Shown one piece after another: positions 1-2,626 of a stretch of DNA of 26,060 bases. The notes under the pieces are model-generated. The model saw nothing but the letters and a program-made list of their open reading frames with translations. It did no database searches and was not told where the DNA came from. Location: positions 1 through 26,060 of the IMG/VR virus record IMGVR_UViG_3300045454_000020, one strand, 5' to 3'. This stretch comes from a virus. The translations under genes and the position numbers were made by a program. Position 1 is the stretch's first letter; each line of letters opens with the position of its first letter.

Positions 1-810
1 CGCCGCGGAACCGCGGCCGCCGCTGGTGCTGTAGAGAAGCTCCTGTCTTATGACTACTCTCGGCTCCCGAGGCAAAAGGGAGCCACTGCCCGCCACGCCA
101 TTCATGGCGGGCAGTGGCGGGGGTCGGATCGAGAGGATGAAGCGCCCCTTTAGGGTCGCGAGCCTCTCGGCCATCGCCGCAAACTGGGTCGGATCGAAGA
201 GTCCCTTGCCGTAGTCATCTTCCGAGTTCCAGTAGGGCGGGTCGAGATAGAACAGCGTTTCGGCCCGATCATAGCGGTCGACGAAGGCCCGCCAGTCCAG
301 GTGCTCGATCACAACGCCGGCGAGCCGTTCGTGGATGACTTCGAGCAGCGGAGCCAGTCGGGTGAGGTTGAACCCTCCCGCCGATCGCGGATCGACGCCG
401 AAGTTCTGACCGGCCACCTTGCCGCCGAACGCCAGGCGCTGGAGATAGAGAAAGCGGCCGGCCCGCTCCAGATCGGTGAGGGTGCTCGGGTCGCTCGCCT
501 TGAGGCGCTCGAATTCCCGACGGCTCGTGATCTGGAACCGCAGCGTGTCCATGAACTGCGGATAGTGACGCTGGAGGATTCGAAAGAGGTTGGCGACCTC
601 GCCATTGCGATCGTTGATGACCTCGGCCGGCGGGCGGACCGCGCGCCGGAAGAAGACGCCGCCCATGCCAACGAATGCCTCGCAATAGGTGCGGTGCCGG
701 ATGCTGGCGATTCGCCGGCAGAGTTCACCTGCCAGCCGCCTTTTGCCGCCGATGTAGCCGGCGGGAGGCCGGACCGGCTCGACGGCTGACATTTCAGCTC
801 GATCGTTCAT
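1..810 (-). CDS. Dam-type DNA adenine-N6 methyltransferase, C terminus off the window edge
   Basis: The frame is open from ATG at 810 to base 1, 270 codons without a stop. It carries the order expected of the D12/Dam class: an N-terminal GYIGGKRRLA segment (residues 18-27), the AdoMet-binding FVGMGG (46-51), a conserved NDRNGEVANLFR helix (66-77) and the catalytic LDPPYW motif (189-194, DPPY). Such enzymes methylate adenine in short DNA sites; in a phage late region the likely role is protecting its own DNA from host restriction, as Mu's mom does from the same genome position. An in-frame TAG at 817-819 excludes a longer N terminus. No good ribosome site precedes 810, and ATG at 792 is an alternative start. 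Residues 229-251, after RFILSI, do not look like the family and coincide with two DNA palindromes. The family-like ending (YSTSGGRG, 260-267) then resumes. Confidence 0.85.
   Translation of the reverse strand, partial: MNDRAEMSAVEPVRPPAGYIGGKRRLAGELCRRIASIRHRTYCEAFVGMGGVFFRRAVRPPAEVINDRNGEVANLFRILQRHYPQFMDTLRFQITSRREFERLKASDPSTLTDLERAGRFLYLQRLAFGGKVAGQNFGVDPRSAGGFNLTRLAPLLEVIHERLAGVVIEHLDWRAFVDRYDRAETLFYLDPPYWNSEDDYGKGLFDPTQFAAMAERLATLKGRFILSIRPPPLPAMNGVAGSGSLLPREPRVVIRQELLYSTSGGRGSAA
62..117. repeat. Two adjacent palindromes inside the methylase gene
   Basis: The first palindrome has perfect 13-base arms at 83-95 (CCACTGCCCGCCA) and 105-117, with a 9-base loop. The second has 7-base arms at 62-68 (GGCTCCC) and 78-84, with a 9-base loop, and shares two bases with the first. 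Together they encode about residues 232-250 of the methylase, and the reading frame stays open through both. They may be an inserted palindromic element or structured coding RNA. Confidence 0.75.
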
Positions 811-843
811 TTGGTGCTAACCCAGATCGGGCCACCCTCCATC

Positions 844-858
844 GCCCCTTTCGGGGGC
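844..858. other. Small GC hairpin between the HNH/DnaA-like gene and the methylase gene
   Basis: GCCCC at 844-848 and GGGGC at 854-858 form a 5-bp stem with a 5-base loop. On the minus strand the loop reads CGAAA. It lies in the 121-bp gap between the stop at 932 and the methylase start. There is no U tract, so it is a weak candidate for a terminator or leader structure. Confidence 0.3.
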
Positions 859-931
859 AGCGGGTGCGGCGGTTATCTTCGATCATCGTCGGGCGGGGCT
901 GGTTTGGCGATCGGACCCGCCGCCGGCGCCG

Positions 932-2626
932 TCAAGCGCCGGCCATCCGTGGCTTTTCCCGGTCCTCCTCCTGCTTTGCTTGCCGCCGCAGCTCGGCGGC
1001 CAGCTCATCCATCAGTTCGTCGAAGGCGTCGTCGTCGCGTCGGTCCTCGATTACGTGATTTCCGTGCAGAACCGTGGTGCGGTCGCAGTCGGTAGCGTCT
1101 CCCACCATCCTCATGCTGAATTCCAGTTCGACATTGAGCAGATAGCGGAACACCTGCCGGGCGAATGCGACCTGGCGGGTCGAACGTGTCCGGTCGAGCG
1201 CGCTGTTGAGGTCGGGCTTGGAGACGCCGAACTGCCGCGCCACGACCGCCGCCGCGGCGTCGACGATGTGCTGGGGGATCGCCTCCCGCGGCTTCTTGCG
1301 CCAGTCGACCGGCACCGGCTTCAGGTGCTCGGCCGAGAAGCAGGTGTCGTTCCAGCAGCAGTGGTCGACGACGTAGCCCTTCGGAATCGCAATGCCGGCG
1401 AAGAAGAGCGCCGCCCGCTCGGGCTTCATGTGTTTGCCGCCGCCGATGTCGATCGCACCGGGCACCGGGCCGATGAAGTGCCGGCAGCCTTCGGCGTTGG
1501 GAGGTGAGAGCCGCCGCTCGAATCGCCTCTCCGGCGACACCGCCTTGAACCGGAAGACCTTCTTGCGGCTGACGAAGAAGCTCCGGTTGCGGGCGCGCTG
1601 CGCAGCCTTCTCCTCCCGCGCCGCCGCCTTCTTCGCCGCACGCGCGGCCTTGCGCTCCTCCATTTGCCGGACGCGCTCGCGTTCTTTCTCCACGCGGCGC
1701 GCCTGGCGCTCCCGCCGGCGCTCCTCGTTCCGGCGCGCCACGGCCTCGGCTTTGGCCCGCTCACGCTCCTCCTTTGCCCGCTGGCGCTCGACGCGGGCCG
1801 CGGCCTTTGCCTCCTCTCGCGCCCGGCGGAGGAGGTCCTTCGCCTCCTGGGCAAGCCGCCGGCGCTCGGCCCATGCCCGGCTGCGCTGTTCGGATCGGGC
1901 GTGCGCGGCGGGCGAGGATGGCGGCCGCGGCGCTTTCGGCCCGGCCGTCCGGGCCTGCCGGGGCCGGTTACCACAGACGGCCTTGGCCGCGCGCGCTTCT
2001 GCGGCGCGTTTCCGCTTCCGGTCGGCAGACACGGCGTCGACCTGCTCGCGAAAAGCCACGTCGGCGGTGCGGCGGCGGTTCCATTGCCCTACGCTCGGCC
2101 ATCCGTCCCGGCCGGTGCAGATTGCCCCCTTCTCCTCGCCCGCCTCGTAGCGCCGCGCAACCTCGGCCCATCGCTCCTCGCTCACCGGACCGGCCTTGTC
2201 GGTCGGCAGCGCCTGGTAGATCTCCGAGGCCTTCACGCGAGCCAGCATGTCGGGATAGCGATGGATCGCCTGCCGGAACTGCCGCGCGGTCGGAAGGCCG
2301 TCCATTCCGCCCCAGACGGACGGGAACTCGCCACCCTCGTAGCGCTTCAGCGCCTCGTCCCATTTCGCCCAGGGGATGCCGGCGATCTCGGCCGGCGGCG
2401 CCGCCGAGAAGGCCGCCGCGCAGTGGGGGCACCGGAGCGCCAGCATCTTCGTGTCCCGCTGCCAGCCGGCAGCATCGGCGCGCTTGAGCAGCTCGGCATA
2501 GGCGTCCTGGAGCGCCGCGTGGCTGTCGGGCGCATCGATGCCAAAGCCGCGGTCGCCGTGGCCCTCCGGGCAGCCGTTGGAGGTCAAGGCCGGTCCAGTG
2601 CAGCGGAGTTCGATCCAGAGCGTCAT
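932..2626 (-). CDS. Multidomain protein: zinc-ribbon-like, HTH-like repeats, coiled coil, HNH-like, DnaA domain IV-like
   Basis: 564 residues, with the start ATG overlapping the TGA of the baseplate gene (ATGA). Residues 1-75 resemble a small alphaproteobacterial phage protein (MTLWIELRC start, cysteines 9, 19, 66, 69). Residues 86-132 and 151-198 are two copies of one unit (W.E...RYE.GE, then DG.P...Q), similar in feel to HTH units of terminase small subunits. Residues 245-345 are an extremely Arg/Glu/Ala/Lys-rich helix, probably a coiled coil. Residues 380-440 resemble an HNH_3 nuclease (VDHCCW at 420-425, C429, EHL at 433-435), but the usual Asn of the CxNP motif is Ser431. Residues 448-530 match DnaA domain IV, ending in CDRTTVLHG (514-522); bacterial DnaA has DHTTVLH there, so His is replaced by Arg516. 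A sequence-specific DNA-binding role is likely. Cleavage is uncertain and the biological task is unknown. Confidence 0.8.
   Translation of the reverse strand: MTLWIELRCTGPALTSNGCPEGHGDRGFGIDAPDSHAALQDAYAELLKRADAAGWQRDTKMLALRCPHCAAAFSAAPPAEIAGIPWAKWDEALKRYEGGEFPSVWGGMDGLPTARQFRQAIHRYPDMLARVKASEIYQALPTDKAGPVSEERWAEVARRYEAGEEKGAICTGRDGWPSVGQWNRRRTADVAFREQVDAVSADRKRKRAAEARAAKAVCGNRPRQARTAGPKAPRPPSSPAAHARSEQRSRAWAERRRLAQEAKDLLRRAREEAKAAARVERQRAKEERERAKAEAVARRNEERRRERQARRVEKERERVRQMEERKAARAAKKAAAREEKAAQRARNRSFFVSRKKVFRFKAVSPERRFERRLSPPNAEGCRHFIGPVPGAIDIGGGKHMKPERAALFFAGIAIPKGYVVDHCCWNDTCFSAEHLKPVPVDWRKKPREAIPQHIVDAAAAVVARQFGVSKPDLNSALDRTRSTRQVAFARQVFRYLLNVELEFSMRMVGDATDCDRTTVLHGNHVIEDRRDDDAFDELMDELAAELRRQAKQEEDREKPRMAGA

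Follow-up and report, generated by a model that had tools for sequence, protein, structure and literature searches.

The late operon of a Mu-like siphophage ends with a gene for a 564-amino acid protein (P0001) that joins a zinc-ribbon-like N terminus, two TerS-like helix-turn-helix (HTH) repeats, a charged linker, a degenerate HNH domain, and a C-terminal domain with the DnaA domain IV fold (Table 1). This arrangement is real and new: as in the initial annotation, no described family with this module order was found, and every single module is known. From the modules we infer, tentatively, a DNA-binding protein of several modules that is expressed late and probably does not cleave; its gene occupies the right-end accessory slot of Mu-like transposable siphophages. 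The window, that is, the whole stretch of 26,060 nucleotides that was analyzed, is a 26-kb virus record of such a phage; its large terminase is 53–64% identical to those of vB_ThpS-P1 (which encodes a Mu transposase), vB_RhkS_P1, and their relatives, it contains matches to Mu Gp27 and Mor, and its tail end is of the gene transfer agent (GTA) type.

Table 1. Features of the window and copies of the non-coding element in other phage contigs (positions without a prefix are those of the window)
Feature	Position	Strand	Basis
D12-class adenine-N6 DNA methylase, extending beyond the contig end and altered in its C-terminal part	1..810	minus	Pfam, PHROG
Conserved non-coding element, overlapping the last codons of the gene	815..950	minus	common to 8 phage contigs
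Gene P0001, 564 aa	932..2626 including stop codon	minus	open frame, full-length homologues, dN < dS in every domain
DnaA-domain-IV fold, GafA-N/GafY (PRK06030-like) branch, residues 446-550	977..1291	minus	profiles, model, tree
Degenerate HNH domain, residues 356-445	1292..1561	minus	D421, H422, H434 kept; N96-equivalent is R443; upstream AHR replaced by PER
Arg/Ala/Glu/Lys-rich linker, residues 207-350	1577..2008	minus	composition
Second TerS-like HTH repeat, residues 144-206	2009..2197	minus	as first repeat; L033 copy matches Pfam
First TerS-like HTH repeat, residues 79-140	2207..2392	minus	internal repeat, helical model, fold matches
Zinc-ribbon-like N terminus, residues 1-78	2393..2626	minus	alignments, structure model, weak phrog_8303 match
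ATGA overlap, start codon overlapping the stop codon of the gene for the tail-tip (GTA-TIM-type) protein	2623..2626	minus	sequence
Element copy	L002:16444-16573
Element copy	L003:15808-15945
Element copy	L005:15163-15305
Element copy	L008:14659-14806
Element copy	L011:14664-14801
Element copy	L075:1-140	minus
Element copy	L076:4031-4172	minus

The gene is a single uninterrupted frame, as initially annotated, and lies on the minus strand, which the annotation had not given. Full-length homologues are present in an IMG/VR contig (L002:14877-16460, 53% identity) and in a Mu-like prophage of Phyllobacterium leguminum ORS 1419, a member of the Hyphomicrobiales (L031:10001-11614, 52% identity), and the domain order first proposed is kept in full in these three independent genomes. 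Because two independent full-length homologues share this order, a sequencing-error join of separate genes is excluded. The ATGA overlap with a preceding tail gene is found in all three, with a tail-tip gene in L031 as in the window and with a short tail-fibre-like gene in L002, in agreement with the late-operon position assigned before. For every domain pair with estimable dS, the HNH included, dN is below dS (0.2–0.36 versus at least 0.9 in the HNH and DnaA-like domains), and judged from these ratios the full architecture is under purifying selection. The gene is rare, being found in one of 397 Hyphomicrobiales genomes and one of 385 class-level genomes, which are the same genome, and searches of phages, plasmids, and further genomes, in which pattern scans reach close relatives only, found none other than the three members and one N-terminal relative (L033); L037 gives a weak match to residues 105-196. 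In P. leguminum it is the last gene of the prophage, between apparent hmuT and hmuU; the left part of this prophage contains a Mu transposase match (E 4.5e-47), and inverted copies of its right-end sequence are found about 36 kb off, close to the left end.

Across four aligned proteins, C9, C19, H23, C66, and C69 are invariant, phrog_8303 matches weakly in all three full-length proteins, and the N-terminal module is modelled as beta-beta-alpha-beta-beta (mean pLDDT of the whole model 80.7); this module would presumably bind zinc. The RYE-GE...DG-P repeat of the initial annotation is confirmed by the alignment of residues 79-140 with 144-206, whose score of 58 is reached by none of 2000 shuffles, and its HTH-like nature by a helical model with Sf6 TerS as the top PDB fold matches, with weak E-values. 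The L033 copy of the repeat matches Pfam Sf6_terminase above the cut-off (E 1e-6), whereas the window copies fall below it. We assign the repeats, with some reserve, to the Sf6 TerS-like HTHs, with which they share the pattern GE...I....DGWPT..QW..; they differ from Sf6-type TerS in occurring here in two copies fused to other modules, and in that the window phage has another small terminase candidate. The L033 protein (L033:2216-3808), a phage protein of 530 amino acids whose gene lies near one for a large terminase, has only the zinc/TerS-like N-terminal module in common with P0001, and it apparently carries at least one further HTH repeat copy around residues 320-390. The Arg/Glu/Ala/Lys-rich stretch that follows the repeats, also noted before, is evident in the composition of residues 206-350 (26% Arg, 26% Ala, 14% Glu, and 8% Lys); this linker is probably helical and is the least conserved part overall, with 42–50% identity.

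These repeats bring in the main rival reading, that the protein is a DNA-packaging accessory in which the TerS-like repeats and the HNH cooperate with the terminase (at the phage ends, for instance) and the DnaA-like domain picks the site. It would fit the Sf6 TerS likeness of the repeats, the L033 N-terminal module encoded close to a large terminase gene, the assistance that HNH proteins give to terminases in other phages (PMC5304195), and the P. leguminum gene lying about 20 bp from the right-end repeats of its prophage. We nonetheless consider it unlikely, given that a Mu Gp27-type protein and a large terminase are already encoded by the phage itself, that the HNH is without the N96-equivalent, and that the gene is missing from close relatives whose tail is the same.

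In the whole protein, the HNH_3 signal is sub-threshold (E 4e-4), and with the 93-residue domain scanned alone it is exactly at the curated Pfam cut-off (24.8 bits, E 1.6e-5), which upholds the HNH-like module proposed earlier. The HNH part matches 35 phage records, many of them annotated as HNH or endonuclease, and with alignment A6 it matches I-HmuI (1u3e) at E 1.7e-4; the AlphaFold model of this part has a pLDDT < 50 and was not used as evidence. The likeness to the HNH_3/I-HmuI-type phage HNH endonucleases lies in the core GC...G...P.G.[VI][DE]H.C.N..C....HL, and the difference in the large fusion and in two replaced motifs. In I-HmuI, residues D74, H75, and N96 are catalytic (PMC12724721), and their positions in the three homologues are occupied by D/E/E, H/H/H, and R/M/R, respectively, so that the catalytic D/H/N set is incomplete, with D or E and H present and Asn absent in all three. 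The Asn equivalent to N96 is present in all seven related phage HNHs but lost in all three members, in each of which the upstream AHR is also replaced by PER. The initial annotation had placed the key Asn change at Ser 431, but the N96-equivalent is position 443 (Arg); position 431, which is Ser in the window and Ala in the other members, varies among related HNHs, with Arg in EvePickles gp63. Its suggestion that cleavage may be lost is nevertheless strengthened to a probable one by the missing Asn, and because the N96-equivalent is lost yet dN is well below dS, the HNH appears to be kept as a probably non-cleaving module. A module without the canonical metal ligand could still cut if another residue substitutes, and a site-specific HNH nuclease that is still active, or a free-standing endonuclease of the homing type, taking its specificity from the DnaA-like and TerS-like modules, would suit a domain that is recognizable in all three members, is related to I-HmuI-type enzymes, and keeps the D/E-H pair, as well as a sporadic distribution in a fixed slot that fits mobile genes. 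The change of the catalytic Asn to Arg, Met, and Arg, together with the uniform AHR to PER replacement, makes this reading decidedly doubtful.

The slot between the tail genes and the right end contains a D12 methylase in the window, L005, and L011, and a Mu Com homologue in L003, L008, and L076, while in L031 the present gene is last. The DNA methylase noted initially next to the gene is borne out (Pfam MethyltransfD12 E 1.2e-16; PHROG 56 E 3e-66) and is 80% and 75% identical to the genes of L005 and L011. A constant methylase flank is not, as close relatives have the methylase without this gene, and in the P. leguminum prophage about 13 kb separate the gene from the methylase homologue. Because the slot holds varying accessory genes, the association with the methylase is positional and not proof of a functional one. 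The likeness to the mom/com slot of Mu is in the right-end position after the tail genes, where relatives carry Com or a methylase, and the difference is that the 564-amino acid protein is homologous to neither Com nor Mom. The Com homologues are at L003:15946-16110 (PF10122 E 1.2e-14), L008:14807-14932, and L076:4666-4791 (reverse strand); in L003, Com is followed by an apparent cytosine methylase start, a candidate with no confirming profile match. In the window, the methylase frame diverges from those of its relatives beyond about residue 228 and apparently converges with them again roughly 25 residues further on (positions 60-125). A perfect 14-bp inverted repeat is found there (82-95/105-118), which gives the impression of an in-frame insertion of a small palindromic element. 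A defence system was considered, and PADLOC gave no match of note.

The non-coding element downstream of the gene stands at the end of the tail operon in all eight contigs, with the methylase or Com next where the contig continues (the D12 methylase in three phages and the Mu Com gene in three others). Its sequence conservation is strong. A first hairpin around the stop codon is partly re-formed by different bases, the second part is an invariant stem-loop, GGCGGG...TCGCCAAAC...CCCGCC, and the third consists of GATAACCGCC.CACCCG followed by a GCCC/GGGC hairpin. Because the covariation term is unfavourable (+1.17) and the single-sequence z-score weak (only -0.85), the structure is suggested but not proven. 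The element has no Rfam match above the cut-off and no match in annotated phages; it could be the late terminator together with a leader of the modification genes. If P0001 were a Com-like regulator of the adjacent methylase, accessory to a DNA-modification module and acting on this conserved leader, then its zinc-ribbon-like N terminus, its place directly before the element and methylase in the window, and the Mu Com and further downstream gene that relatives carry at the same place would be explained; but L005 and L011 have the element and methylase without this gene or Com, and L031 has the gene without the element or an adjacent methylase, so improbable a fit that we give it little weight.

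The DnaA domain IV-like end proposed before is supported by a Bac_DnaA_C (Pfam) match to residues 459-523 above the cut-off (E 2.6e-8) and by the AlphaFold model, which is mostly of high confidence over this domain and has DnaA domain IV (3pvp and 1j1v) as its best PDB matches in Foldseek, with a TM of about 0.8 by target length. PRK06030 models (E 1e-10 to 4e-7) outscore the DnaA model, with a score of 41.8 bits that is far below the NCBIfam equivalog cut-off of 148. When 61 genomes from relatives of P. leguminum are scanned, proteins of 130–190 amino acids give the best partial matches, and real DnaA comes last (E 1e-4 to 1e-3). Most of the small proteins fetched adjoin DUF6456, the C-terminal half of GafA, as is also seen in L034, and such a split GafA organization has been described for the Hyphomicrobiales (PMC9638019). 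The L034 record (MW462191.1 72882-81157) was deposited as 'Bacteriophage sp.' and looks like a bacterial chromosome, with a split gafA locus in the order DnaA-like protein, DUF6456, and annotated sulfur acceptor protein (SufE). The motifs DR[TS]T and ED.RD are common to the phage domain and most of the small proteins, whereas DnaA has DHTT; in the window, D-R-T-T is followed by the signature IEDRRDD. In an 18-sequence tree, the DnaA clade is split off at 99.8/100 with the phage clade outside it, and branching among the GafA-N-type proteins is not settled. By score, signature residues, and tree, we place the domain with the alphaproteobacterial GafA-N/GafY-type proteins, and these same criteria rule out a plain DnaA derivative; the His to Arg change taken initially as a sign of altered specificity is instead a signature of this family. 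A profile search found no AAA+ ATPase domain III in the 564 residues, a further difference from DnaA, and the equivalent of DnaA H434 is Arg or Val. The recognition motif is DRTT in two members and DVAT in L031, and because this helix differs the target sites may differ between members. The phage domain differs from GafA-N and GafY in being fused behind the zinc module, TerS-like repeats, and HNH, in its tail-operon location, and in having no partner: DUF6456/GafZ was found neither in seven phage records searched, that of L002 included, nor in the window protein.

The least probable reading is the initially proposed aim at replication origins, in which the DnaA-like domain would bind DnaA boxes and interfere with host replication: the DnaA domain IV fold, beyond which it has no positive support, and the D-x-T-T residues partly kept in two of the three members are outweighed by the grouping with GafA-N by signature and score, the family-typical DRTT, the DVAT of L031, and the lack of any DnaA box matching TTWTNCACA in the window.

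Because the DnaA-like part matches gene-transfer-agent regulators, a regulatory DNA-binding protein seems more likely than a nuclease aimed at origins. Promoter activation by both GafA-N and GafY has experimental support: GafA-N is needed for activation of the RcGTA promoter (PMC9638019), and GafY together with IHF activates Caulobacter GTA promoters (PMC11150451). In the DNA-binding protein that we favor, the GafY-type domain would bind DNA in a sequence-specific way, with additional contacts made by the zinc module and the TerS-like repeats, the charged helical linker would space or oligomerize the modules, and the former nuclease would be retained as a DNA-gripping module, such that the protein may act late in infection as a regulator or organizer of DNA, either in transcription or in DNA traffic. 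Counting against a regulator are the last place in the late operon, which is odd for a late activator, and the missing DUF6456/GafZ partner in the phage records searched.

A more specific proposal, which we regard as very unlikely, is that the phage acts with its GafY-type reader on regulatory sites of the host gene transfer agent and in this way blocks GTA production or hijacks it. The P. leguminum genome contains the prophage gene and, on another contig, its own GafY/GafZ-type pair; the contig with the pair also carries a second GTA_TIM gene. What the finding adds is a DNA reader of the GafA-N/GafY type in transposable phages, joined there to HTHs of the packaging type and to a degenerate nuclease. 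Should the protein prove to control transcription, it would tie the late regulation of a phage to that of gene transfer agents, and this connection is testable in P. leguminum, where both systems are present.
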